This document shows positions 34,657 to 46,367 of a DNA stretch of 64,000 nucleotides, piece after piece. The stretch is from Nitrospirota bacterium (GTDB taxonomy: Bacteria; Nitrospirota; Nitrospiria; Nitrospirales; Nitrospiraceae). Positions within the stretch are counted from its first letter, which is position 1. The number at the start of each line of letters is the position of its first letter. Position numbers and translations under genes: made by a program. Where the stretch lies: positions 8,158 through 72,157 of the forward strand of contig NSIK01000016.1 of assembly GCA_002737345.1 (NCBI GenBank), read 5' to 3'. The notes below the pieces were generated by a model. That model did not search any database, had not been told where the DNA came from, and was given only the letters and a program-made list of their open reading frames with translations.

Positions 34657-35175
34657 CTATTCCTGCCCCCCGTGCTTGCCTCCCATCAACGGCTGCTTTA
34701 AGACCCACATCTCGTAGAGGGGGATCACCATCATGATGAGGAATCCCACGGTCATGAGGGTGTCGCCCGTCAGCATCGTGATCACGAATACCGGCGAGAT
34801 ATAGCTGATGAGCCAGGGGGACAAGAGGTCCAGCGTCACGCCGCCAAAGGAGATCCAGGTTGTGACGACTTTCAGCCTGCTGCTAACGTTGGTGAGGTAG
34901 AGCACGTGGACCAGGATCATGAACACGACCGGCATCGTAAAGAGGTGGAAGTGGGTGATTTCTGCCAGCTCTCTGAACGACATCGGCTCGCCGAATGTGA
35001 TGTCCGAGCCTCGATAGTGCTTGGCGATTCCTTCCGGCGACAGCCCCGTCATGCTGTGGGCCCAGAAGAAGGAAAAGGTAAAGCCGACCAGCATGAGGAA
35101 GAGGAAAAAGGTGTAGACCAGCCGGATGTGCCGGTCTGAGTCACGGAGTTTGAATCGTTGATTGAAGTTTCTCAT
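34657..35175 (-). CDS. Four-helix membrane protein with conserved histidines (unknown)
   Basis: 172 residues with four hydrophobic helices at about 18-40, 73-97, 103-126 and 130-158. Helix 2 contains three His (ITHFHLFTMPVVFMILVHVLYL), a spacing that could ligate b-type heme, and helix 1 is closely followed by another (FFWAHSMTG). No named domain is recognised. It is the last gene of a minus-strand operon, 24 bases after the FMN-binding protein, so a redox partnership is plausible: an electron conduit through the inner membrane to the periplasmic flavin. That role is inference only. Confidence 0.75.
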   Translation of the reverse strand: MRNFNQRFKLRDSDRHIRLVYTFFLFLMLVGFTFSFFWAHSMTGLSPEGIAKHYRGSDITFGEPMSFRELAEITHFHLFTMPVVFMILVHVLYLTNVSSRLKVVTTWISFGGVTLDLLSPWLISYISPVFVITMLTGDTLMTVGFLIMMVIPLYEMWVLKQPLMGGKHGGQE

Positions 35176-35199
35176 ACGGGGACACTCGGTCCGCTTATC

Positions 35200-35886
35200 T
35201 TAGTTGCCGAAAATTGATGTGAATAAGCCCTTGTCAGTCTTGCGAGATGAGACAGTATCGCTCCCCAATCCTGCCGGTTTCAAATAGAATTCGTCGATGA
35301 GGACCAGCACGCGTTTGACGCCAGCGCTCATGGAGCGCACAGACATGGTGGCCCCGCTGATGTTAATGATGTCCTTGTTGATCCTGATCGGGTCCGACAC
35401 GGTCTTGCCGTCGTACTGAGCGTTGAAGCGTTTTGTCCTGACTTCACCGCCCTTGGCGTCCCGAAACACGAGGAGTTCCACGTCGGTACAGGTTCCCTTG
35501 GTATCGACGCCGACCATATAAGTCATGGGCTTGTACTTGCCGATGGTATGCTGAATCATGGCGTAGCCGTCGATTTTGTCACCGGTTTGACCGATGTAGA
35601 GTTCGAACGAATCCTCGGGGAACTTCCATCCGATCCGCTGTTCGATCAGTTCCTTCTTCTCTGAGGTAAGTCTGATCAGTTCCTTGCGAACCTGCTGAGT
35701 CTTTGGCATGACGGCCTTCAGCGCTTCTTCTTCCGTCATGAACTCTTCATACTTGAAATCGTCATCTTTAAGAAATCGGCGCAACTCATTATCCCAGATC
35801 TTCTCGCCGGCCAGGACGGGAAGTGTTGAGGATGTCAACAGGACTGCAAGGGCGACGGTGCGAAACGCACTCAGGGTAGTGAGCAT
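35200..35886 (-). CDS. Periplasmic FMN-binding domain protein (RnfG/NqrC-like flavinylation target)
   Basis: 228 residues. A signal peptide (residues 1-26, ends LPVLAGEK) is followed by a helical segment and an FMN-binding domain with VGVDTKGTCTDVELLVFRDAKGGEV and the flavinylation motif INISGATMSVRSM, the SGAT sequence in which Thr is esterified to FMN by ApbE. An apbE gene lies three kilobases away in the same island. The FMN-binding protein overlaps the upstream lipoprotein gene by 16 bases and is followed by the four-helix membrane protein. Expected to be a periplasmic single-electron carrier; its electron donor and acceptor are unknown. Confidence 0.88.
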   Translation of the reverse strand: MLTTLSAFRTVALAVLLTSSTLPVLAGEKIWDNELRRFLKDDDFKYEEFMTEEEALKAVMPKTQQVRKELIRLTSEKKELIEQRIGWKFPEDSFELYIGQTGDKIDGYAMIQHTIGKYKPMTYMVGVDTKGTCTDVELLVFRDAKGGEVRTKRFNAQYDGKTVSDPIRINKDIINISGATMSVRSMSAGVKRVLVLIDEFYLKPAGLGSDTVSSRKTDKGLFTSIFGN

Positions 35887-36323
35887 CCATGCTCCTTTAA
35901 TTTGGCGTCAAGACGACGTTGTACATCGTTCATGACATCTGCTGACGGATCGGTGTCGGCCCAGCCGAAGAGGCGGGAGCCCCCTCGAAAGGCCCAGCGC
36001 TGCCGCTCCTCTATAAAACTAACTTTCGTCACGTCGTCGAGTCGTTTCACTGTGAGGGTAATACGGGACCGATCTTTGCTGTTCGCCAAGTCACGTTGAA
36101 GCGCACCAAAGGTCCGTCCCGGCATCGGGATTTCCAGCCAGCCGGTCACGATTAGGCCCACATCCTTATCCTGCGTGTTGATCGCGCGATCTTTTGCTGC
36201 ATCGAGCGCTGCCTCCCAAGCATGGTCGTAGCGGCACACTGCATACCGTTCCTGCATGCCGCTGGTGGACACACAGGCCGTCAGGAGTCCAGTTGTCAAA
36301 AAGAGACTGAGATGGCGATACAT
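35871..36323 (-). CDS. Small periplasmic lipoprotein of unknown function
   Basis: 150 residues from ATG 36323. The signal YRHLSLFLTTGLLTAC has lipobox LTAC. The mature domain has alternating helices and strands (YDHAWEAALDAAKDRAINTQDKDVG, GWLEIPMPGRTFGALQ, SRITLTVKRLDDVTKVSFIEERQ) resembling general secreted lipoprotein folds with no catalytic motif. Overlap with the next gene's start (16 bases) shows translational coupling with the FMN-binding protein, so a role in the same complex is likely. Confidence 0.82.
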   Translation of the reverse strand: MYRHLSLFLTTGLLTACVSTSGMQERYAVCRYDHAWEAALDAAKDRAINTQDKDVGLIVTGWLEIPMPGRTFGALQRDLANSKDRSRITLTVKRLDDVTKVSFIEERQRWAFRGGSRLFGWADTDPSADVMNDVQRRLDAKLKEHGCSLP

Positions 36324-36381
36324 TCGTAACCGTCCTGTTTTTGGGCAGGTGCTTCCACCATGGCGCAAAGCACCTGCCTAA

Positions 36382-37863
36382 CTAAAAGTACGTTGCGCCT
36401 TGAATCAACAACCCGTTCCCATTCATCGGGTTCCCTGCGGTGGTCGCGTTACCTCCGCTAGCATAATCTTGACCCGACGTGAGACCCTGCGCGTTTTGCT
36501 GTGTATTAAACTGCCAGTCAAACTTGAACACCACGTCCTCAATCGGTCTGAAATTGAGGCCAAGGGTGAGCCGCTCAAGCTCCCGCCGATTTCCAATTGT
36601 ATTCGGCGCATTCCGAGTGCGGTTATCTGTGTCGGTGTCGACACGTTCCCAGCGAACAACCGCCGTAAAGGTCGAGGCATTCGAGAAGTGACTTGGCGCC
36701 CATTTCTTGAGGAAATCAGGCATGAAATGATAGTTCCCCTGAATGTAATAGCCCTGCATGCCGGCAGGCCCGATCCCGTTGCCGGTGGCGCCGGTTGCGT
36801 TATTATTGCTGATCCTTGCCCAGGCTGATTCACCGATCACCTCGAAGGGGCCTCGCTGGAGAGTCCAGTCGAGTGCGAATAGGCTGATGCGCCCGGCCCC
36901 GACGTCCCCAGCTGCTTGTTTGTATGCGCCATGATAACCGGACCCAGCGACTTCGATGCCCAGCCTCGGGCTGAAGGCGACACGGCCTACGACAGCTTTG
37001 TTGTCGTCGCGATCACGGGAGACGCTGCCGCGCGCGTCTCGGACTCCCCGGTCGGTGATTGCGCCTGCTTGCGAGCTCATGCCGTTGACCGCGTAGATTT
37101 CATAGTCCAGCTTGGACTGGGAGGATGGGTAAAGTGTGCCGTAGAATCCAGCCCCCGATTCATACCAGGTGCTGGGGATGACAATCCTGGATACCATAGG
37201 CCGATCAACTAGATCGTTCAATGGCGAGTCGTGCAGCAAGTTAAACTTGCCGACCGGCATCAGGAGGATGCCGGCGCGAATATTGATCGCTTCCTTTACG
37301 AGGTAGTCTATTTGTGCGAATTCGATCTGCATGGAGCCATCGCCGGTTTGTGGAGCATTCGACCCGCCGCGCTCCATCTCGATTTCCGTCGCAAATTTCA
37401 CATGGTCGGTGATATCCGCAAAGATGAAGGGCACCATCCGCTGTTGGCCAAAGCTATTGCGGCTTGGATTGTCCAGGTTTTGACGCGACAGGTTATTGTA
37501 CATGACATCTGCGTAGCCACCGACCATGGCCTTCGGCGCGCTCAAGAAGGGCTTGGCATAGATCAGTTTGCCTGATCCGGTTGAGCCGAATCCTAGGGGG
37601 ATGTTTTCCTCTCCCTTTCGTTCGACTCTGATGTCGGTTATGGGGCCTGCCGGGGTGGGGTAGGGAGTCGTACCGGGCTGACCCTCTTGCTTTTCCACGG
37701 CTCGTTCCATGGGGCTTTCGCGCCGTTCATGCTCCTGCATCTTTTTGTTGACGGCTTCGTCGACGAGTTTCTTAATGTCCTCCTGGGTCATGTTTTCCGC
37801 CAAGGCCGGGATAACCTGCAGGCTGGCGAGTACGAGAACCCCAAGGATTGACCAAACTTTCAT
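36382..37863 (-). CDS. Outer membrane porin-like beta-barrel protein
   Basis: About 493 residues from ATG 37863 after GGAGGATACCG. It has a signal peptide (KVWSILGVLVLASLQVIPALAEN), then a charged coiled-coil segment (residues about 24-60, DIKKLVDEAVNKKMQEHERR) as in OprO/P-like or Fe-related porins with an N-terminal trimerisation helix. The rest is a barrel with many amphipathic strands, Asn/Gly rich, ending with the aromatic Phe (GATYF). Most likely a selective channel for an anion or chelate; substrate not deducible. The open frame runs to 37989, but that part has no ribosome site. It is the second gene behind a Fur-box promoter. Confidence 0.85.
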   Translation of the reverse strand: MKVWSILGVLVLASLQVIPALAENMTQEDIKKLVDEAVNKKMQEHERRESPMERAVEKQEGQPGTTPYPTPAGPITDIRVERKGEENIPLGFGSTGSGKLIYAKPFLSAPKAMVGGYADVMYNNLSRQNLDNPSRNSFGQQRMVPFIFADITDHVKFATEIEMERGGSNAPQTGDGSMQIEFAQIDYLVKEAINIRAGILLMPVGKFNLLHDSPLNDLVDRPMVSRIVIPSTWYESGAGFYGTLYPSSQSKLDYEIYAVNGMSSQAGAITDRGVRDARGSVSRDRDDNKAVVGRVAFSPRLGIEVAGSGYHGAYKQAAGDVGAGRISLFALDWTLQRGPFEVIGESAWARISNNNATGATGNGIGPAGMQGYYIQGNYHFMPDFLKKWAPSHFSNASTFTAVVRWERVDTDTDNRTRNAPNTIGNRRELERLTLGLNFRPIEDVVFKFDWQFNTQQNAQGLTSGQDYASGGNATTAGNPMNGNGLLIQGATYF

Positions 37864-37955
37864 CGGTATCCTCCACGGTGAGTAAAATGGTTGTGGTCTG
37901 ACTCGGGACTCGCAGGTCTCTGGTCGTGTTGATAATTCATGGTGACCGCCTCTTT

Positions 37956-38159
37956 TCATGATGTGTAACCGGATGTAAGCGCTGTCCACCCCTCAATGGC
38001 TGTGAAGGGGATCACAACAATCCTTTTGCAACGTTTGCACTTCAGATCGAGACCTTGTCCGCGAACTTTGGCAATTAGCTGTCCGCATTCGCATCGAGTT
38101 TCTTTGCTAGTACAGAGCCCCGCCGCGGGAGTTTTTGTTGCCGTCATGGTGCGAACCAT
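37956..38159 (-). CDS. Small zinc-ribbon protein (Com-like)
   Basis: 67 residues. The core ETRCECGQLIAKVRGQGLDL plus KCKRCKRIVVIPF has CxC and CxxC knuckles like the Mu-phage Com family of zinc-finger translational or transcriptional regulators. ATG 38159 or a second ATG four codons in. It is the first gene after the Fur-box promoter at 38175-38216 and runs into the porin gene after about 92 bases, so it may regulate this operon. No phage genes are nearby. Confidence 0.65.
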   Translation of the reverse strand: MVRTMTATKTPAAGLCTSKETRCECGQLIAKVRGQGLDLKCKRCKRIVVIPFTAIEGWTALTSGYTS

Positions 38160-38174
38160 TTCCGTAAATGAAAT

Positions 38175-38216
38175 TGAGAACGATTATTAATATCTTAATT
38201 TCATTCTCATTGTCAA
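38175..38216 (-). promoter_or_regulatory. Promoter with overlapping Fur-box-like operator, porin/FMN operon
   Basis: On the minus strand: TTGACA -35 (38211-38216), an 18-base spacer and TATTAA -10 (38187-38192). The inverted repeat TGAGAATGA...TCGTTCTCA (38175-38209) covers the spacer and -10. It resembles A/T-rich Fur boxes (TGAGAAT...ATTCTCA type). Expression would rise when iron is scarce. The position upstream of the small zinc-ribbon gene, with divergent 38307 on the other side, makes it a likely Fur-controlled control region. Confidence 0.6.
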
Positions 38217-38272
38217 GAGGGGGCTATCCCCCAGATGGCAAGGAAGAACATGCAATCAGGCCAGGGTTTGCC

Positions 38273-38278
38273 TATAAT
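38273..38278 (+). promoter_or_regulatory. Consensus -10 box for the 38307 gene
   Basis: TATAAT at 38273-38278, about 29 bases before the start codon. No good -35 is seen, so an activator or a weak promoter is possible. Confidence 0.4.
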
Positions 38279-38306
38279 TCAAGCACGATAAAAGTGGGGT
38301 GGTCGA

Positions 38307-38909
38307 ATGTGGACTAATTTTGCCTGGATCGCTGGAATTGCATTCATTTCTGTGGGGTGCGCAGCGGACTTGCCCTCGCTCGTTGAATCTCCTGACCCTG
38401 ACGGACCATTGGTCGTGGGACGGGTCGTTACGGTTGTGACTGGTGAACGAGGCAGAATGTACGCAGCGGAAGTGCGCTTTTTCGAGATGGAAGATCAACG
38501 AACTCACGAACGGTTTAATGTGGAGATCAAGTCCGCGGATCGGCATTTTGCGATTGCGTTGCCTGTCGGAGACTATCGCCTCAATCGCGTGCAGATCAGC
38601 GAGGGGCCCTTTATGTCCATGGCGGACGTGAGCGCGGCTTTCTCAGTTAGCCAAGATAGGGTGACCGATGTGGGGACCTGGCGGTTTGCTGTTGATTCGC
38701 CCCGCTATGGGCGCATGGTGGTCCTGTCGATGGTGATGGACAGTGATGATCGGTGGCTGACCGATGCCTTCCTTACGAAACAATATCCTGCATTGCAAGG
38801 AGTTCCCGTCACGTCCGTCCTCCCTGAGCCCTCGACGATGGAAACGCGCCTCTATGAAGTGCTGCCATATCCGCGCTATTCACGATACTTTCAGCGACAT
38901 GTTTGGTAG
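38307..38909 (+). CDS. Lipoprotein of unknown function, apbE neighbour
   Basis: 200 residues. N-terminal WTNFAWIAGIAFISVGC contains a lipobox (SVGC). The mature part resembles a beta-sandwich secreted protein (VVGRVVTVVTGERGRMYAAEV, FAIALPVGDYRLNRVQIS), similar to carboxypeptidase-regulatory or lipoprotein beta domains that bind peptides or glycans, and ends in a Tyr-rich tail. No enzymatic motif. It ends 10 bases before apbE, suggesting a shared transcript. Role unknown. Confidence 0.8.
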   Translation: MWTNFAWIAGIAFISVGCAADLPSLVESPDPDGPLVVGRVVTVVTGERGRMYAAEVRFFEMEDQRTHERFNVEIKSADRHFAIALPVGDYRLNRVQISEGPFMSMADVSAAFSVSQDRVTDVGTWRFAVDSPRYGRMVVLSMVMDSDDRWLTDAFLTKQYPALQGVPVTSVLPEPSTMETRLYEVLPYPRYSRYFQRHVW

Positions 38910-38919
38910 GAGCCTATTG

Positions 38920-39975
38920 ATGAGCTCGAGTCAGGCTGGCGTACTTATCTGGTGTTTCTCTCTCAACCTTCTCGTGGGATCTGGTTGCGCAGCTCTCTCA
39001 TCTGGTGGTCCGGCTGTGGTGGTGAAGCGGACACAGATGCATATGGGAACGCTCGTTTCCGTCACCGCTGTGGCGCTAACTCATGAAGATGCGAACAAGG
39101 CAATCAATGCCGGGTTTATGGAAATCAAGCGGCTTGAGCAGTTGCTGAGCACCTGGATTCCAACGAGCGAGCTTTCTCGCGTGAATGCTGCGGCGGGAGT
39201 CATGCCGGTCTCTGTAAGTCCCGAAACGTTGACGGTCGTTCAACGCGCGATGCAGGCAGCGGCCATGACCGGTGGCGGTTTCAATATTGCCATTGGCCCT
39301 GCGGTCGATGCCTGGCGCGTGACCGAAGGCCAACGGATACCGACCGCATCTGAACTGGAGGCCCTCCGTCCTTTGGTGGATCTGCAAGCTGTCTATATCG
39401 ACGCGCGGGGGCGGACGATCTATCTTGAGAAAATAGGTATGAGGATCGATGTGGGAGGGATCGGCAAGGGTTACGCAGCCGATCAAGCCGTGACGGTCAT
39501 GCAGAAGGCCGGGGCTGTTGCCGGAGTCGTGGCGCTTTCAGGGGATATCAAAACATTCGGCCGGTTGCCTGGCGGGAAGATGTTTCCCGTCGGCATTCAG
39601 CATCCGCGACAGGACGGAGCGGTATTGGCCTGGATCGATTTACAAGACGAAGCCATTTCTACCGCCGGAGATTATGAGCGGTTCTTCGAGCGTGACGGTG
39701 TCCGCTATCATCACATTCTCGATCCGCTCACGCTCCAGCCGGCGCGCGGTTGCCAGAGCGTGACGGTGATTGCCAAGGAAGGGGTTTGGGCCGATGGCCT
39801 CGATACAGGCATTTTTGTGATGGGACCGAAACGGGGCATGGAACTGGTCGAACAGCTGCCGGACGTCGAGGCTATTATTGTCGGGCACGACGGCCGCGTG
39901 TTTGTCTCATCCGGGCTAAAGACCCGCGTCCTGTTTCCGTCTGATTCCGACGCGAAAGGACAGGCTCAACATTGA
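38920..39975 (+). CDS. apbE: FAD:protein FMN transferase ApbE (lipoprotein form)
   Basis: Transfers FMN from FAD onto a Thr in exported proteins. About 351 residues from ATG 38920 with TAGGAG upstream. A signal peptide with lipobox (GSGCAAL) anchors it to the outer face of the inner membrane. Key motifs: MGTLVSVT-like N-terminal strand, IDVGGIGKGYAADQAV for FAD binding, YHHILDPLTLQPARG, and the metal-binding Asp motif ADGLDTGIFVMG. The obvious substrate in the window is the SGAT protein at 35200-35886. The stop overlaps the next gene. Confidence 0.93.
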   Translation: MSSSQAGVLIWCFSLNLLVGSGCAALSSGGPAVVVKRTQMHMGTLVSVTAVALTHEDANKAINAGFMEIKRLEQLLSTWIPTSELSRVNAAAGVMPVSVSPETLTVVQRAMQAAAMTGGGFNIAIGPAVDAWRVTEGQRIPTASELEALRPLVDLQAVYIDARGRTIYLEKIGMRIDVGGIGKGYAADQAVTVMQKAGAVAGVVALSGDIKTFGRLPGGKMFPVGIQHPRQDGAVLAWIDLQDEAISTAGDYERFFERDGVRYHHILDPLTLQPARGCQSVTVIAKEGVWADGLDTGIFVMGPKRGMELVEQLPDVEAIIVGHDGRVFVSSGLKTRVLFPSDSDAKGQAQH

Positions 39976-40277
39976 GGACCCTGCAGCAACTCGTACTTAT
40001 CTGTGCCCTAGGGGCAGTCAGTGCTTGTTCGGAGTTCGAAGCCCAGCACTTCAAAGGTCGCATTAATGAAGCCACGACCGAGCAAGTGGCCAAGCGCTAT
40101 GGCCCGCCCCATGAGATTGAGCAGCGTGAGGGCCATCGAATGGTCTGGACCTATTTTGACCGGGGAAGTGCCACTTCAGGCTACACCGGCACAGCCCGTT
40201 CAGCCTTTTGCCGCGCCTACGTGCTGACATTTGATCGACAGGAAATTCTGAGAGATTGGCAGCAACAGGAGTGCTGA
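39972..40277 (+). CDS. Small lipoprotein, BamE/SmpA-like
   Basis: 101 residues from TTG 39972 overlapping the apbE stop. It has an N-terminal signal with lipobox (VSACSEF). The mature part has TTEQVAKRYGPPHEIEQREGHRMVWTYFDRG, resembling the BamE/SmpA beta-alpha fold. Two more Cys residues occur near the C-terminus. Its function is unknown; it is probably co-transcribed with apbE. Confidence 0.75.
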   Translation: MRTLQQLVLICALGAVSACSEFEAQHFKGRINEATTEQVAKRYGPPHEIEQREGHRMVWTYFDRGSATSGYTGTARSAFCRAYVLTFDRQEILRDWQQQEC

Positions 40278-40304: not shown

Positions 40305-41141
40305 CTACGAATCCAATCGATAGCTGATGGGAATCTTAATCGTCAATTGTGGTCGGCCCAGTGGATGGGGCAGGTGGAAAGGGGCTGCCTGCCTGATGGT
40401 TTCAATCGCAGCCTTGTCGAGGCTGGGGAATCCTGAACTCTGAACCACCTCAATCTCGCCGACGCTGCCATCTTCACTGAGCACTATTTTAACCATCACC
40501 CTTCCTTCGGCTCGCTCGATTCGGGCTGCAGCTGGGTAGCGTTTCAGTTCTTCCACTCGCCGTATAATCGCTTCAGCGAGCCATCCATAGTCTCGTTTCG
40601 CCGGTTCGTTTGCTGGCGCAGGGGCGATCCCGGCAGTTTGCGCTGGCACTGCGTCAGGTTTGGCTGTCGGCTCCAGGAGTGCCGGAGGCCTGGGCGGAGG
40701 CGTCTGTGCCGTAGGTTTCGCAGGAGCGGCCACCGGCGCTTCGCTTGGGTTTTCGACGGCTGGGGCCTTTGTGACCACCGGGGCTGCAGTTTCATGTTTG
40801 ATCGGCTGAGCCGGTTGTGGTGGAGGCGGTACAGGAGTTTTTGGGGCCACTGGAGTGACGGTCTGTTCAGTAATCGATGGAGTGGTCTGTGGCGACTGGG
40901 TTTGCGGTGCAGGCTGGGCCTGGGCCTGGCTCGGGGGTGACGAGTCCCGTGTCACTAGTTCTGTCGGGGAGACGAGCAAGGCGTCCCACTTGAACGGCTT
41001 TTCTTGCGGCCCGAGTTGGATCTCCTTTACGAGCAGGACTGCGCCGAGCACCACTGCTCCATGTAAGAGGAGAGAGACGACCCAGCCTTGTACGTGAGAA
41101 CTCTTCTGGCTTTCGAAGTGCTGTGGTCCGGCAGCGGTCAC
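40305..41141 (-). CDS. tonB: TonB energy transducer
   Basis: 278 residues. Layout: cytoplasmic basic N-terminus, one membrane helix (residues about 17-40), a long periplasmic Pro/Ala/Gln/Thr-rich linker (about 60-170), and a C-terminal TonB domain with YGWLAEAIIRRVEELKRYPAAARIERAEGRVMVK and SSGFPSLDKAAIETIRQAAPF. It couples inner-membrane proton motive force to outer-membrane receptors. The start overlaps the exbD stop by four bases. Confidence 0.95.
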   Translation of the reverse strand: MTAAGPQHFESQKSSHVQGWVVSLLLHGAVVLGAVLLVKEIQLGPQEKPFKWDALLVSPTELVTRDSSPPSQAQAQPAPQTQSPQTTPSITEQTVTPVAPKTPVPPPPQPAQPIKHETAAPVVTKAPAVENPSEAPVAAPAKPTAQTPPPRPPALLEPTAKPDAVPAQTAGIAPAPANEPAKRDYGWLAEAIIRRVEELKRYPAAARIERAEGRVMVKIVLSEDGSVGEIEVVQSSGFPSLDKAAIETIRQAAPFHLPHPLGRPQLTIKIPISYRLDS

Positions 41142-41512
41142 AGCCGAACGACCTCCAGGCTGATTTGTTGAAATCCCAGCCCCCGCACTTCATCCACCAC
41201 GGATACGAACCGTTCGAGCTGGATGACTTTATCCGCCCGCACGACGACCGTCGATTCTCGAGGCTCCGACGCCAGGGCGCCCGAGAGCCCCCCTGCAGGA
41301 ATGGCATGGTCGTTGAAGAAGAGCGCGCCCTCGGCAGTTAGGGTGATCACAACCGGGGCATCCTTACGGTCGCCGACTTCTTTCGCTTTAGCCAAATTGA
41401 CCGGAATCTGGCCGCTGCTGATAAAGGTGGCGGTGGTCAGGACGATGACCAGGAGGACCAGCATGACGTCCACGAGGGGAATGACGTTGATCTGATCAAT
41501 GTCGCGCTGCAT
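41138..41512 (-). CDS. exbD: Biopolymer transport protein ExbD
   Basis: 124 residues: cytoplasmic N-terminus, one membrane helix with the conserved Asp-containing segment NVIPLVDVMLVLLVIVLTTA, and a periplasmic domain. Part of the TonB-ExbB-ExbD motor. It overlaps exbB by 17 bases and tonB by four. Confidence 0.95.
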   Translation of the reverse strand: MQRDIDQINVIPLVDVMLVLLVIVLTTATFISSGQIPVNLAKAKEVGDRKDAPVVITLTAEGALFFNDHAIPAGGLSGALASEPRESTVVVRADKVIQLERFVSVVDEVRGLGFQQISLEVVRL

Positions 41513-41927
41513 GCTGTTCCTTGTGTAGCGCGAGGAGCTCGGTGACTTTTCTCCGAAGCACGTTGTTCATGACGACGCAGGGAATCGCGACCAGCAGTCC
41601 GACCGCCGTCGCTTTCAGCGCCAGGCTGAGCCCGATCATGATGGCATTGACGGCCATGGTGCCGGAGGTGCCCATCGTATGGAAGGTGAGCATGATGCCC
41701 AGCACGGTGCCTAGCAGGCCGATATAGGGGGCGTTTGCGGCGACCGTGCCGATGACGACTAATCGTTTGGTTAGAGCCATTTCCAGCCCCAGGCTGCTGG
41801 GGTACTGGGCAAGATTGATGCGGCGGTAAAAAATCCACCGCTCGACCGCCACGGCCATAGTCCAGAGGCTGAGCGCCAAGAGGAGCCCGATGATGCCGTA
41901 ATCAACGACGTTTTGCAGTGCGTTCAT
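41496..41927 (-). CDS. exbB: Biopolymer transport protein ExbB (short)
   Basis: 143 residues with three membrane helices. It contains the conserved segment IGTVAANAPYIGLLGTVLGIMLTF and IGLSLALKATAVGLLVAIPCVVMNN. Shorter than the E. coli protein but normal for ExbB in many diderms. First gene of exbB-exbD-tonB; GGAG precedes the ATG. Confidence 0.94.
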   Translation of the reverse strand: MNALQNVVDYGIIGLLLALSLWTMAVAVERWIFYRRINLAQYPSSLGLEMALTKRLVVIGTVAANAPYIGLLGTVLGIMLTFHTMGTSGTMAVNAIMIGLSLALKATAVGLLVAIPCVVMNNVLRRKVTELLALHKEQHAARH

Positions 41928-42058: not shown

Positions 42059-43135
42059 CTAGCCGGCTGACGTTTCTTGTCGAAAGAGTACTGTGTGGGT
42101 CGCCAGGACACGGAGCTCCACCGCCGTGCCTACCTGATAAATGCTCGTGGAGCCTTGACTGCTATGGACGATTTGACCGGAGGGAAGGCTGACCGTGTAG
42201 AGATTTTCCGAGCCGCGGAATTGGCGGGAAATGACGCGGGATCTGGCGCCTTCCGTCGGGACGAGGTGAATGTCGTCCGGTCTGATCATGACGACCACGG
42301 TTGTACCGTCCTGACATTCGAGGGTATCGGGAAATTCCCCCAGTTCGGTCTGGACCATGCCGTGCGATACGGTTCCAGGAATAAAGTCCGCCTGGCCAAC
42401 AAAGTCGGCCACGAAGGGTGTGGCCGGTAGGTGATACATCATTTCCGGCGTATCGAATTGCTCCAGGCGGCCCTGGTTGAGGACGGCAATCCGATCAGCC
42501 ATGGCAAAGGCTTCGTCATGGTCATGTGTCACGAGGATGGTCGTCGTCTTCGTCCGGCGTAGCAGGTCGTGGAGCTCCTGGCGCATGCGTCCCGACATAT
42601 CGGGGTCCAAATTACTGAAGGGCTCGTCGAGCAACAGGACGATGGGATTCTGGACGAGGGCGCGGGCCAGCGCGACACGTTGCTGCTGGCCGCCAGACAA
42701 TTCGTGCGGATACCGCCGCTCGAATCCCTCCAGCCCTGTGAGCCGCAGCATCTCCTGGACCCGTGTGGTGCGCAGGCTTTGCGTGGATTGGCTGAGCCCA
42801 AAGGCGATGTTGTCCTGCACGCGCAAGTGGGGGAAGAGGGCATATTCTTGAAAGACCATCCCGATGCGCCGGTTCTCCGTCGGGGTCATCACCTTCTGTG
42901 ACGACACGAGCTGGTCTGATAAAAAAATTTGCCCTGAGCGAACCGGTTCAAATCCCGCGATCGCCCGAAGAATCGTTGTTTTCCCGCAGCCGGATGGGCC
43001 GAGCAGGCAGAGGATCTCCCCTTCCTTAGCCGCAAACGAAATGTCCTGGACCGCGGGCCGCCCTGCTTCATAGGAACAGGAAACTTGCCGCAGCTCCAAG
43101 ACCGAGGAAACGGTTGTGGAATGGTCTGAGGTCAC
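42059..43135 (-). CDS. fbpC: Ferric-iron ABC transporter ATP-binding protein
   Basis: 358 residues. The nucleotide-binding domain has Walker A GPSGCGKTTILRAIAG, ABC signature LSGGQQQRVALARALVQ, Walker B VLLLDEPFSNLD and the switch His in VTHDHDEAF. The C-terminal TOBE-like domain (about 240-350) is typical of FbpC/PotA/CysA importers. It lies downstream of the matching permease and binding-protein genes in one minus-strand unit. Ferric iron is the inferred substrate from the fbpA partner and nearby Fur site. Confidence 0.93.
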   Translation of the reverse strand: MTSDHSTTVSSVLELRQVSCSYEAGRPAVQDISFAAKEGEILCLLGPSGCGKTTILRAIAGFEPVRSGQIFLSDQLVSSQKVMTPTENRRIGMVFQEYALFPHLRVQDNIAFGLSQSTQSLRTTRVQEMLRLTGLEGFERRYPHELSGGQQQRVALARALVQNPIVLLLDEPFSNLDPDMSGRMRQELHDLLRRTKTTTILVTHDHDEAFAMADRIAVLNQGRLEQFDTPEMMYHLPATPFVADFVGQADFIPGTVSHGMVQTELGEFPDTLECQDGTTVVVMIRPDDIHLVPTEGARSRVISRQFRGSENLYTVSLPSGQIVHSSQGSTSIYQVGTAVELRVLATHTVLFRQETSAG

Positions 43136-43168
43136 AGAGTCACAATCCTTTCTTTAGTATTCAATTTA

Positions 43169-44752
43169 TTAGGCGGCGCGCCAATCTTTCGAGACTAATA
43201 AGGCCAATGCCGGGAGACTCAGTAACACAATGAGGAGCGCGGCGGGGGCGGCGAGCTGAAAGTATTCTTCGCTCGCTTCCATCCAGACGCGAATGGCCAG
43301 GGTGTCGAATCCCACCGGCCGCAATAAGAGGGTCGCAGGTAATTCCTTCATCGTTTGTAGAAACATCAAGACCCAGGCAACGACAAATCCATTGCGGATC
43401 AGGGGCAGCGTCACTCGCCGCCAGGTTGCCCGCATGCCAAAGCCCAGCGTGCGCGAGACCTCTTCCAGGTTCGGGCTAATTTGCTGAAGTGCAGGCTCCA
43501 GCGATTGAAGGCCAGCCGGGAGAAAGTGGATTACGTAGGCCACGATGAGGATCAGGACCGAGCCGTAGAACACGGGAGCCAGTTGGGTAAAGAGGACGAG
43601 GACGGCCAATGCCGCCACCGGCCCTGGCAGCACGTAGCCGGCATAGGCTGCCTGCAGGCAACCCACGTTCAGCAGGGTTGGGCGGCGGCTCGCCAGGTAG
43701 GCGAGCGGCAAGCCGATCAAGACCCCGCCGGTAGCCGCGCTGGCGGCTAGGAGCCCGCTGTTCCAGATAAATCCAAAAAACCGGCGATCGAGTGTCGCTT
43801 GCGCTTCGGGAGACAGGCTCCATTGGATCAAGAGCGAGGCGGGCAGCACGAAGGCTGCCGCGACGATCAGCCCGAGATAGCTGGTGATGGCGACTGTGCC
43901 GAGCCACCCATACTGCTGCCGTTGCGGAGCTCGGTAGCGGCCGGTCGTTTGGTAGAACCGGCTCCGCTGCCGGAACCACCGTTCGGTAATCAGGAAAATC
44001 AGCGCGAGGGCAACCAGCAAGAGACTCAAGATGCTCGCGGCCGTATTGTCGGATCGTCCGGTCATCTGCTGAAACACGGCATAGGTGAGGGTCTGGTAGC
44101 GAAGCAAGGAGACTGCGCCAAAGTCCGACACGACATACAAGATGACGAGGGCGAGTCCTGCGGCAATCGAGGGGCGCATTAAGGGCAGGGTCACGCGCCA
44201 GAGGGTCGAGAGACGGGATGCGCCGCTGGCCCGCGCCACCTCTTCGAACGACACGTTCATGCTGAGGAGGGCGCTCCGGCTGAGGAGATAGACAAAGGGA
44301 AAAGTATCCAAGGCCATGACGAGCGTCGCGCCCCAATAACTATGGGGAGAGAAGATCCTGGCTTGAGGGCCTGCCAGGAGTTGCCAGAGATGCTCGACCG
44401 GACCGTCGAATCCTAAAAGATAGGAATAGACATAGGCCAGGACGTACGTCGGCATCGCCAGAGGAAGGACCAAGGCGCCCTCCCACATGCGGCGACCGGG
44501 AAATTCCGTGCGAGAGACCAGCCAGGCGGTCGAGACGCCCAGGAAGAGCGTGACGACCGCGACGCTGGCGGCTAGAGAGACGGTGTTGAATAGCAGTTCG
44601 GGAATGCGGGTGCTCCATAAACGGATCCAGACTGCCGGATCAGCCGAGAGGGCCTGTGCCGTGACATAGCCAAGCGGAAGCAGGATGAGGCCAGCAGTGG
44701 CGAGGGCAAGGAGTTGCAGCGGTGAGGCAAGTTGTTGGCGAATCGTGCTCAC
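43169..44752 (-). CDS. fbpB: Ferric-iron ABC transporter permease (fused double domain)
   Basis: 527 residues with about twelve membrane helices. There are two BPD-transport domains, each with an EAA loop: the first around SFEEVARASGASRLSTLWRVTLPLM and the second around NLEEVSRTLGFGMRATWRRVTLPLI. The fused two-domain form is typical of FbpB/SfuB. It lies 33 bases upstream of the ATPase gene in transcription order. Confidence 0.95.
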   Translation of the reverse strand: MSTIRQQLASPLQLLALATAGLILLPLGYVTAQALSADPAVWIRLWSTRIPELLFNTVSLAASVAVVTLFLGVSTAWLVSRTEFPGRRMWEGALVLPLAMPTYVLAYVYSYLLGFDGPVEHLWQLLAGPQARIFSPHSYWGATLVMALDTFPFVYLLSRSALLSMNVSFEEVARASGASRLSTLWRVTLPLMRPSIAAGLALVILYVVSDFGAVSLLRYQTLTYAVFQQMTGRSDNTAASILSLLLVALALIFLITERWFRQRSRFYQTTGRYRAPQRQQYGWLGTVAITSYLGLIVAAAFVLPASLLIQWSLSPEAQATLDRRFFGFIWNSGLLAASAATGGVLIGLPLAYLASRRPTLLNVGCLQAAYAGYVLPGPVAALAVLVLFTQLAPVFYGSVLILIVAYVIHFLPAGLQSLEPALQQISPNLEEVSRTLGFGMRATWRRVTLPLIRNGFVVAWVLMFLQTMKELPATLLLRPVGFDTLAIRVWMEASEEYFQLAAPAALLIVLLSLPALALLVSKDWRAA

Positions 44753-44770
44753 GGTGTGTTCCTTCGAGAG

Positions 44771-45811
44771 CTACCGGAGACCCACTTGTTCGATCAGCGT
44801 GAGGGTCGGCTCGCGTAATTCCGCCAGCTTGGTGAGGGGGACCAAGGCGGCACGGAAGCTCTTCCGCTCCACGAGGGCCGGGTCCGCTTTCACGTCCGGG
44901 TGAAGGGGATATTCCTTGTCGAGGTCCGCGAATAATTTCTGCCCTGCGTGGGCGACCAGGAATTCGACGAGGAGCTTGGCGCTCTCCAAATGCTTGGTCG
45001 ACTTGATGATGCCAACACCGGCGACGTTCATGATGGCCCCCATGCCGCCTTCAAATTGATCCGGCATCAAGGCGGCGATCGGCGCATTGGGCTGTGTGGC
45101 GAGGTGACGGTAGATGTAGTAGTGATTCACGATCCCCAGCGCGACCTGCCCCTTAGCGACGGCATCCACGATCTGTGAACTCTTCTGATAGACTTGGCCG
45201 TCCGCATTGGCCTTGAGGCCCTGCAGGAACTGTCGGGTCTTTTCGTCTCCATGAATGGCGCGAATGACCGACACGCCGGCTTGTAAATATTCGCTGCCGG
45301 AATTCGGAATGGCGATCTTATCTTTCCATTTCGGGTCGGCGAGGTCGAGAAGCGACTTTACCTGGTCCGGCTTCACCAGCGAGGTGTTGTAGACGACGGC
45401 CCAAAACCGTCCGGAGAGTCCGACCCAGGCATTGTCCGGCGCGCGGAATTGCGCTGGGATGGCCCGTTCGACTTCCCGCATGTTCAAGGGGCGGAGGAGG
45501 CCGGCGGTTCGGGCCAGCTCCAAGCTGCCTGCGTCGTTGGTGATCAAGAGGTCTGCCGAGGTGTGATTCCCTTCCGCTTTCAGCCGATTGACCAATTCCG
45601 TCGTGCCGGAGGAGAGGAGCTCGATTTGGATGCCAGTGCTCGCCGTAAAGGCGTCGAGGACCGGCTTGATGAGCCGTTCTCCGCGGCCAGAGTAGATCGT
45701 GAGTTTGTCCGCTGCTTGGGCGCAGGGTGCCAGGAGCCCGACGACCACAGCGAACATGAGACCAGCGAGGATCGCCCGGCGTAATGTTGGCAGGGAGCAG
45801 GTGAAGAACAT
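44771..45811 (-). CDS. fbpA: Ferric-iron ABC transporter periplasmic binding protein FbpA
   Basis: 346 residues with a signal peptide (ends PCAQAADKLTIYSGR). It starts as a class of transferrin-like periplasmic ferric-binding proteins (LTIYSGRGERLIKPVLDAF). The paired Tyr iron ligands are in GIVNHYYIYRHLA, with other ligands likely upstream. The promoter at 45836-45882 overlaps a Fur-box palindrome. First gene of fbpA-fbpB-fbpC. Confidence 0.95.
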   Translation of the reverse strand: MFFTCSLPTLRRAILAGLMFAVVVGLLAPCAQAADKLTIYSGRGERLIKPVLDAFTASTGIQIELLSSGTTELVNRLKAEGNHTSADLLITNDAGSLELARTAGLLRPLNMREVERAIPAQFRAPDNAWVGLSGRFWAVVYNTSLVKPDQVKSLLDLADPKWKDKIAIPNSGSEYLQAGVSVIRAIHGDEKTRQFLQGLKANADGQVYQKSSQIVDAVAKGQVALGIVNHYYIYRHLATQPNAPIAALMPDQFEGGMGAIMNVAGVGIIKSTKHLESAKLLVEFLVAHAGQKLFADLDKEYPLHPDVKADPALVERKSFRAALVPLTKLAELREPTLTLIEQVGLR

Positions 45812-45835: not shown

Positions 45836-45882
45836 TTGATAAGCCGTATCAAGATGATACTAAAAAAAAGCTAGTCCGTCAA
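45836..45882 (-). promoter_or_regulatory. fbpA promoter with Fur-box palindrome
   Basis: Minus-strand TTGACG -35 (45877-45882), a 17-base spacer and TATCAT -10 (45854-45859). Immediately downstream lies the dyad TTGATAAGCCGTATCAA (45836-45852), with 6-base arms around a 5-base centre in a Fur-like A/T-rich context. The -35 overlaps the fur stop codon. Iron-dependent repression is likely, with Fur itself encoded next door. Confidence 0.65.
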
Positions 45883-46313
45883 TGGCGGCAGCGGGAGCAG
45901 AGGCCGTAAAGCTCAAGCCGGTGGGTGGTGATGGTGAATTTGTTTTTGCTGGCCACTTCTTCTTGGAGCCGTTCGATTTCTTCGTTTTCAAATTCCACGA
46001 TCTTCTGGCAACCGGTGCAGATGAGGTGATCGTGGTGGCCCTTGTGCGTGATATTGTCGTATTGCGTCTGGGAGCCGAAGTGGCGGGCCTGCGCCAAGCC
46101 TGCATCGCAAAACAGGTTGAGCGTTCGGTAGATGGTGGCGAGCCCCAAGTGAGGATCAGACTTGGCCAACTGGTGATACATGGCTTCTGCCGTAATATGT
46201 TCTTGGCGAAGAAACGCGCTCAGGATCAATTCCCGTTGGCGGGTGAGTTTGAGCTGATGCTTGCCCAGGTGCTCCTTGAGCGCCTTCATTTCCTTCACAT
46301 GCGTATTCGCCAT
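45879..46313 (-). CDS. fur: Ferric uptake regulator Fur
   Basis: 144 residues from ATG 46313 with GGAGG eight bases upstream. The winged-helix DNA-binding domain covers residues about 1-85 (LTRQRELILSAFLRQEHITAEAMYHQL and LGLATIYRTLNLF). The dimerisation domain has metal-binding His in GHHDHLICTGCQKIVEFE and a second CxxC, CSRC, for structural zinc. It lies head-to-tail with the fbpABC unit, whose Fur-like operator it probably binds. A longer frame to 46367 exists but lacks a ribosome site. Confidence 0.95.
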   Translation of the reverse strand: MANTHVKEMKALKEHLGKHQLKLTRQRELILSAFLRQEHITAEAMYHQLAKSDPHLGLATIYRTLNLFCDAGLAQARHFGSQTQYDNITHKGHHDHLICTGCQKIVEFENEEIERLQEEVASKNKFTITTHRLELYGLCSRCRH

Positions 46314-46337
46314 ATCGATAGCCTCCGAACGGATTCC

Positions 46338-46367
46338 ATTAAAGACGAAACTAGTCCAACCGGTCAA
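46338..46367 (-). promoter_or_regulatory. fur promoter
   Basis: Minus-strand TTGACC (46362-46367), an 18-base spacer and TTTAAT (46338-46343), about 25 bases before the fur start. No Fur box is apparent in it, so autoregulation is not evident. Confidence 0.5.

Follow-up and report, generated by a model that had tools for sequence, protein, structure and literature searches.

A candidate iron-linked flavinylation module with a four-helix membrane protein in Nitrospirota

Introduction

Flavinylation beside iron transporters, or in connection with iron assimilation, has been published in general terms (PMC8238504; this and the other published sources are cited from the parts of their texts that were available). 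Among the closest described arrangements is that of the PepSY/DUF2271/ApbE flavinylation systems, some of them Fur-repressed, which combine ApbE, a flavinylated periplasmic protein and a membrane electron-transfer protein with a link to iron and Fur (PMC8238504). Here, we describe a locus of similar, partly predicted composition in a 64,000-nucleotide stretch of a Nitrospirota bacterium (assembly GCA_002737345.1, contig NSIK01000016.1; the whole stretch is called the window), where a minus-strand operon encoding a flavin mononucleotide (FMN)-binding protein, a four-helix membrane protein and a porin lies divergently from apbE. Unlike the PepSY/DUF2271 systems, this locus has an FMN_bind flavin domain and a membrane protein without a Pfam family, and a scan of ten window proteins found no PepSY, DUF2271 or DUF4198 domain (E ≤ 1).

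Several other systems share individual features with the locus. P19/FTR1 clusters containing an FMN-binding gene have been described (PMC8238504), and a row with FMN_bind and FTR1 also occurs in two distantly related loci of our sample, L063 and L067. Neither P19 (PF10634) nor FTR1 (PF03239) was found among the ten scanned window proteins, nor P19 among the proteins scanned from L063 and L067, and unlike those clusters, the locus adds a porin, a zinc ribbon and a four-helix membrane partner. Heme b cytochromes encoded beside apbE have likewise been reported (PMC11334425), with DUF4405 proteins near apbE and FezC in ferrosomes; both are membrane proteins with conserved histidines, and FezC and MsrQ were modelled as homodimers (PMC11334425). 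The four-helix protein differs in having no DUF4405 match and in having four helices with three histidines in one of them, the distinction from FezC being drawn from its description. At E ≤ 1 in Pfam and NCBIfam it belongs to none of the NapH-, MsrQ-, PepSY-, DsbD-, NQR/RNF-like or DUF4405 classes set out in the available parts of PMC8238504 and PMC11334425.

RnfG and NqrC have their fold family and an SGAT-type motif in common with the FMN protein of the locus, which, unlike them, scores below the cut-off of the rnfG model (TIGR01947, 23 against 102 bits) and has no rnf or nqr gene read in its cluster. The fusion of a flavin transferase to its own target is known from trypanosomatids, as an ApbE-fumarate reductase (PMC12052999); the fusions that we found in another order of the same class differ from it in being bacterial, in having an FMN_bind target and in carrying a Tat-like motif between the domains. 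In Bifidobacterium breve, the iron-limitation-induced operon sifABCDE includes an FMN-binding protein described as a predicted ferric reductase, and an apbE mutant is sensitive to iron chelators, which the authors credit to Fe-S repair (PMC5449479); this operon, likened here by description only, has a Gram-positive host and FtsX-like permeases.

ApbE-flavinylated periplasmic electron carriers with proposed iron links are therefore an already known kind of system in the available part of PMC8238504, and the earlier impression that the set had not been described holds, in the literature examined, for the gene set and not for the link between flavinylation and iron. No title among the best-matching literature listed describes the gene set as a whole. 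The terms 'Nitrospir' and 'porin' are absent from the main text of PMC8238504 and PMC11334425, as are 'fusion', 'fused' and 'Tat' from the main text of PMC8238504. We saw no precedent in the literature examined for the ApbE-Tat-FMN fusion, for the four-helix membrane partner or for a set with porin and zinc ribbon in the contexts of Fur, FTR1, FeoB and FbpABC.

Results and discussion

Proposed function and conservation of the locus

We propose, with a probability of roughly 60%, that the product of the locus is a periplasmic ferric reductase, flavinylated by ApbE and serving in iron starvation, whose four-helix partner passes electrons from quinol to flavin. The proposal draws on the parts of the locus and their near-constant order, an enzyme-substrate fusion in relatives, iron-permease and Fur neighbours, a conserved promoter element and invariant residues, from which we infer flavinylation, heme binding, reduction and Fur binding. 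When iron is plentiful, Fur would repress the operon. ApbE would place FMN on Thr180 of the FMN_bind protein, and the four-helix protein, holding heme b in a homodimer with paired second helices like half of a cytochrome b, would take electrons from the quinol pool and carry them across the inner membrane to the periplasmic flavin. Iron chelates would enter via the porin and its lipoprotein partner, and the reduced flavin would release iron from them by ferric reduction. Import of the iron would then fall to FbpABC in Nitrospira and to FTR1/FeoB in some of the distant relatives.

The operon runs in the order zinc ribbon, porin, lipoprotein LP1, FMN protein and four-helix protein on the minus strand, with lipoprotein LP2, ApbE and lipoprotein LP3 divergent from it on the plus strand, and TonB-ExbDB, FbpCBA and Fur following in that order beyond the ApbE side. 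The parts named in a first-pass annotation of this DNA were all found at their positions. Pfam families passed their cut-offs for FMN_bind, ApbE, TonB and Fur; the other six of the ten scanned proteins gave nothing over a cut-off. The assembly holding the window (G000) comprises 1.67 Mb and is 91.6% complete.

Conservation was assessed in 198 Nitrospirota genomes, each searched with the four-helix and the FMN protein (E ≤ 0.001), which were found in 72 and 105 genomes, respectively. Many of the distant four-helix matches are paralogues with c-type heme motifs, and weak distant FMN matches are in many cases probably general FMN_bind proteins. In the window's own order (kinship labels presumably correspond to Nitrospirales for the order and Nitrospiria for the class), 51 of 56 sampled genomes have both proteins and five have neither (G105, G121, G165, G177, G189). 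Named loci are the best 80 of 186 confirmed loci, picked by the four-helix protein; their titles read Nitrospira, Nitrospirae, Nitrospirota or Nitrospiraceae, with the exceptions of L127 and L163 (Nitrosospira). Neighbourhoods were drawn for 40 stretches, that of L069 being without the anchor.

The comparison of neighbourhoods in relatives, set beforehand as a possible refutation, did not find the order shuffled. Among named loci whose contig reaches far enough, the FMN protein is present in 77/77, LP1 in 74/76, the porin in 68/69, the zinc ribbon in 63/65, ApbE in 55/58, TonB in 48/54 and ExbB in 47/53, and orientation is constant among the FMN, porin, zinc-ribbon and ApbE genes. The exceptions are L106 (no zinc ribbon or ApbE), L115 (no porin) and L158 (no zinc ribbon), and in L128, L158 and L180 the best ApbE match lies further off, at 7.2 to 8.0 kb. 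Conservation of the gene arrangement throughout the order, and in part between classes, goes beyond chance.

The FMN protein and its transferase

The secreted FMN protein (35200..35886, minus strand, 228 aa) matches FMN_bind (PF04205) with 34.7 bits against a cut-off of 22, resembles the RnfG chain 9eri_G (E = 8.8 × 10−6) and contains the motif DIINISGAT, whose Thr180 is the predicted flavinylated residue. This threonine is kept in 103 and Gly178 in all 105 of the 105 aligned sequences. The transferase (38920..39975, plus strand) matches PF02424 with 275.2 bits (cut-off 25.6, E = 7.8 × 10−82), begins with a lipoprotein signal read as LVGSGC and is the sole ApbE match in its genome. Both proteins occur in low copy number in the 21 near genomes: ApbE is found in 19 of them, once in 18 and twice in G208, and is missing from G198 and G209, while FMN_bind is found once in 19 and is missing from G200 and G212. 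Of the 17 near genomes with both, 14 have them within 5 kb on the same contig.

A further sign that the two belong together comes from relatives in which they are encoded in one frame. The FMN/four-helix pair is found in seven distant loci, L061-L067, and in the five of the same class (L061-L065), ApbE and FMN_bind share one open frame; the frame of L061 has both Pfam domains, separated by a Tat signal (19.3 bits, cut-off 16.7). In another order of this class, that of genome G159, ten of 18 genomes carry a full-length ApbE-FMN frame, G222 has the fusion split over two frames and G224 has pieces on two contigs. The four-helix gene adjoins in all 12 loci examined (L211-L222). The earlier pairing of the FMN protein with ApbE is supported by the fusion and the low copy number, and judging from these and the motif, ApbE would attach FMN to Thr180.

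A regular expression found a Tat-like motif between the two domains in eight of the ten full-length fusions (not in L217 and L220). Judging from this motif, the flavin may be attached in the cytosol and the domain then exported folded. Such a natural fusion of ApbE to its substrate can reveal the place and time of flavin attachment.

The four-helix protein

We propose that the four-helix inner-membrane protein (34657..35175, minus strand, 172 aa) is the partner that transfers electrons to the FMN protein from the quinol side. It has no match at E ≤ 1 in Pfam or NCBIfam and none at E ≤ 0.1 among plasmid records. Its AF2 model (mean pLDDT 83.3) consists of long helices at residues 15-43, 67-93, 99-125 and 128-157. 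An alignment of 101 distinct sequences from 114 loci, with the c-heme paralogues left out, showed Glu72, His75, His77, His90, Tyr54, Gly56 and Trp121 to be identical in all 101. Glu72 and the three histidines all lie in helix 2, so the earlier reading of three histidines in one helix was correct.

Read from the sequence, basic residues lie at the N-terminus and in the segment joining helices 2 and 3, which would place both termini in the cytoplasm and consequently His75 and His77 near the periplasm and His90 near the cytoplasm. At 100 degrees per residue, residues 72, 75 and 90 share one face of the helix, and the span from 75 to 90 is close to the separation of the two heme-ligating residues of a cytochrome b helix. 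Because of this common face and spacing, we propose a homodimer with heme b between His75 or His77 of one chain and His90 of the other.

Elsewhere in the phylum, paralogues 240-270 aa long have helices 2-4 in common with it (hhalign probability 97.6% for the L071 protein). Those of L068, L071, L073 and L074 keep the HxH, have lost the third histidine and carry a CxxCH motif. Because of this kinship with c-heme proteins, a role of the four-helix protein in electron transfer is favoured. As an observation in its own right, the L074 paralogue adjoins two further CxxCH proteins. The four-helix protein is a membrane partner without a family model, new as far as the literature examined shows, which the flavinylation field would gain.

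The most serious rival explanation, in our view unlikely, is that Glu72, His75, His77 and His90 form a metal site, making the four-helix protein a permease, chaperone or metal oxidase, with the metal reduced by the FMN protein where the four-helix protein opens to the periplasm. The E-x2-H-x-H pattern and the third histidine are identical in all 101 sequences (the binding iron or another metal in this reading), the protein matches no cytochrome model, and two relatives have iron permeases in the row of genes. Those relatives, L063 and L067, however, already have FTR1 or FeoB alongside, and the homologues that lose the third histidine and gain CxxCH point to electron transfer.

A bolder extension of the ferric-reductase reading can be offered only tentatively. 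The four-helix protein might represent a new class of transmembrane electron carrier, a 'half cytochrome b' working as a homodimer: one helix from each chain would ligand two stacked hemes, and the dimer would be dedicated to reducing a covalently flavinylated protein in Nitrospirota iron uptake. The flavin protein of the other order, with its own ApbE, might be flavinylated in the cytosol and exported folded by Tat.

Promoter and iron-uptake neighbours

Upstream of the zinc-ribbon gene lies a promoter, TTGACA-16-GATATT (38176..38216, minus strand; 10/12), overlapped by the Fur-box-like dyad GATATTAATAATCGTTCTC (38176-38194). The Fur-like site agrees with the Fur consensus at 15 of 19 positions, a score reached by 0/200 shuffles; across 30 loci, the score was at least 14/19 in 21 and 9 to 13 in nine. 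In the scanned region, there were five promoter-like sites against a shuffle mean of 3.2 (sd 1.8), that is, no excess. Because such sites are no commoner than in shuffles, it is conservation in relatives that carries weight: a 13-base promoter core is found exactly upstream of the zinc ribbon in 65/68 named loci, and the best match in 60 control stretches 1 kb away still had four mismatches. Of the strong promoter with an overlapping Fur-box-like dyad that had been noted before, the overlap and the conservation stand; sites like this promoter are no more frequent in the region as a whole than in shuffles. From this promoter, we infer Fur control of the operon.

Elsewhere in the genome, the 13-base core occurs at seven further places with two mismatches. 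A weak scan with a 15-base Fur pattern (at most three mismatches) gave 31 sites per strand, compared with three for the reversed pattern, and one of them lies at 45837-45851, before fbpA.

The iron link has become stronger than first proposed. Beyond the ApbE side, the window encodes an fbpC, fbpB and fbpA-like ABC importer (42059..45811, minus strand), probably for ferric iron. The FbpA-like protein is most similar to the Fe(3+) ABC substrate-binding protein 7li0 (E = 1.3 × 10−53) and has 29 solved relatives at E ≤ 10−10, most of them named iron-binding and one a 2-aminoethylphosphonate binder (3 × 10−12). The Fur-family regulator (45879..46367, minus strand; PF01475, 1.7 × 10−32) has the ferric iron uptake regulator PRK09462 as its nearest NCBIfam model (110.3 bits, below the cut-off of 146). 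Fur lies within the stretch examined in 7/7 distant loci holding the FMN/four-helix pair, and FTR1 was found in L063 and L067 and FeoB in L067, unlabelled neighbours having been scanned in L062, L063 and L067 only. The row in L063 reads Fur, a cupredoxin-like protein, FTR1, zinc ribbon, porin, ApbE-FMN and four-helix protein; that in L067, outside the class, begins with Fur, FTR1, FeoB, a protein with DtxR-type and FeoA domains and a 51-aa FbpC-like frame and continues with zinc ribbon, porin, FMN protein and four-helix protein.

FeoB_C was found in 0/21 near genomes, and 7/14 controls gave a match. Nitrospira, principal nitrite oxidisers and comammox bacteria, have a high iron need for their respiratory enzymes. 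With its presence in 51/56 genomes of the order, the module is a candidate iron route for these bacteria.

These neighbours also bear on a second rival, which we regard as improbable: that the flavin chain works in a different extracytosolic reduction (involving a di-heme MauG-like enzyme, copper or redox balance), its co-regulation with iron uptake arising only because flavin replaces heme carriers under iron scarcity. A MauG/MbnH-like di-heme protein is encoded near the operon in L090 (12981-15476; NCBIfam, below the cut-off), similar ones were read in L088 (2572-5187) and L099 (10471-12327), and the saving of heme by flavin in iron-poor places is discussed in the available part of PMC8238504. 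No MauG-like gene was read in the window cluster, however, and the iron neighbours seen are Fur, FbpABC and, in two loci, FTR1.

Points weighing against a ferric reductase

The following observations weigh against the proposed ferric reductase. On the regulatory side, the Fur-like match is weak in L062-L065 (9 to 11 of 19), the genome has a single exact copy of the 13-base core, which is unusual for a Fur regulon, and no Fur was seen around the c-heme paralogues L068-L074. The four-helix model has no counterpart among PDB folds at E ≤ 0.001, with chance matches only, and with three histidines in one helix, heme would need a dimer. ApbE and FMN_bind are on separate contigs in G208, G210 and G211, and among the 18 genomes of the other order, G139, G213, G214 and G215 have a separate ApbE match only and G185 and G223 have none.

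Further doubts come from the transporters. The best NCBIfam models of FbpA, FbpB and FbpC are 2-aminoethylphosphonate transporters, all far below their cut-offs, and relatives of FbpA usually bind ferric iron, for which prior reduction is unnecessary. In addition, one TonB-dependent receptor was found in the window genome (G000:C25:99500-105100, locus L208) beside a BtuC/FecD-like ABC transporter. It passes a siderophore-receptor subfamily model (230.7, cut-off 223.5); its reading as a B12 receptor was dropped (134.2, cut-off 599.7). Because of this siderophore-type receptor, the genome may have a second iron route.

Porin, lipoproteins and zinc ribbon

The porin (36382..37863, minus strand, 493 aa) has an N-terminal helix and a predicted 16-strand barrel (AF2 model, mean pLDDT 71.0), whose best Foldseek matches are solved porins, including OprP (2o4v, E = 1.1 × 10−10) and DcaP (6eus, E = 2.7 × 10−10). 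The window porin itself has no Pfam match; nine of 20 family members match Porin_O_P (PF07396) at E ≤ 1, with a best value of 7.2 × 10−8. The lipoprotein LP1 (35871..36320, minus strand) has a lipobox read as LLTAC and no Pfam family over the cut-off. Reading of the sequence puts the likely starts of the porin, LP1 and ApbE at 37863, 36320 and 38920, respectively, and gives each protein a signal or lipobox of its own.

In near loci, porin identity has a bimodal distribution. With eight duplicated genomes removed, there were 91 distinct near loci, whose porins fall into two large types at a threshold of 65% identity; the LP1 type matches the porin type in 85/86 loci with both typed, five having no porin assignment. 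L129 and L168 illustrate the pattern: their flanking proteins are 99% identical, yet porin, LP1 and FMN protein share only 50, 40 and 72%, respectively, and DNA identity falls from approximately 95 to approximately 50% past the zinc ribbon and recovers in the last quarter of the FMN gene. This cassette spans the porin and LP1 genes and roughly three quarters of the FMN gene (about 35380-37863); its two types occur across near-identical backgrounds, which looks like allelic replacement. The swap and the agreement of types suggest that LP1 functions together with the porin.

The earlier idea of flavin-based redox feeding an outer-membrane channel found no support, and a third rival, in which the porin is part of an extracellular ferric-reducing conduit through which the flavin protein sends electrons, is very improbable, since the porin, constant in place in 68/69 named loci and tracking its lipoprotein in type as it is, has a general 16-strand fold and no detectable similarity to the CxxCH-bearing protein beside the L074 paralogue, a kinship that was rejected (probability 1.4%).

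The genes of the operon are duplicated in some loci. L076 has FMN protein, LP1, porin and zinc ribbon twice in tandem, and in L078, L079 and L090 the four-helix gene is adjoined by an additional porin, with an extra zinc ribbon as well in L078 and L090.

The zinc-ribbon protein (37956..38159, minus strand, 67 aa) is weakly similar to phage Mu Com, with matches to PHROG 6417 (translational regulator, E = 0.0015) and PHROG 13819 (gpCom, E = 0.003). The window protein has no match to PF10122 (Mu Com), and the L063 member reaches 13.3 bits, below the cut-off of 22.9. Its four cysteines are kept in 92 or 93 of 93 sequences, and the zinc ribbon itself could be a regulator of the locus.

Further features of the neighbourhood

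LP2 (38307..38909, plus strand; lipobox read as ISVGC) is found in only 22/61 loci with room, and the small LP3 (39972..40277, plus strand; AVSAC) in 21/80 named loci, some of which have no room for it. The tonB, exbD and exbB genes (40305..41927, minus strand) were identified by TonB_C (PF03544, 4 × 10−19) for the first and by reading of the sequence for the other two. In L088 and L090, a protein that we take to be HD-GYP-like is encoded near the operon. FMN_bind-like matches also lie near transporter genes that we read as CbiQ-like in L069 and L070, perhaps for nickel or cobalt uptake.

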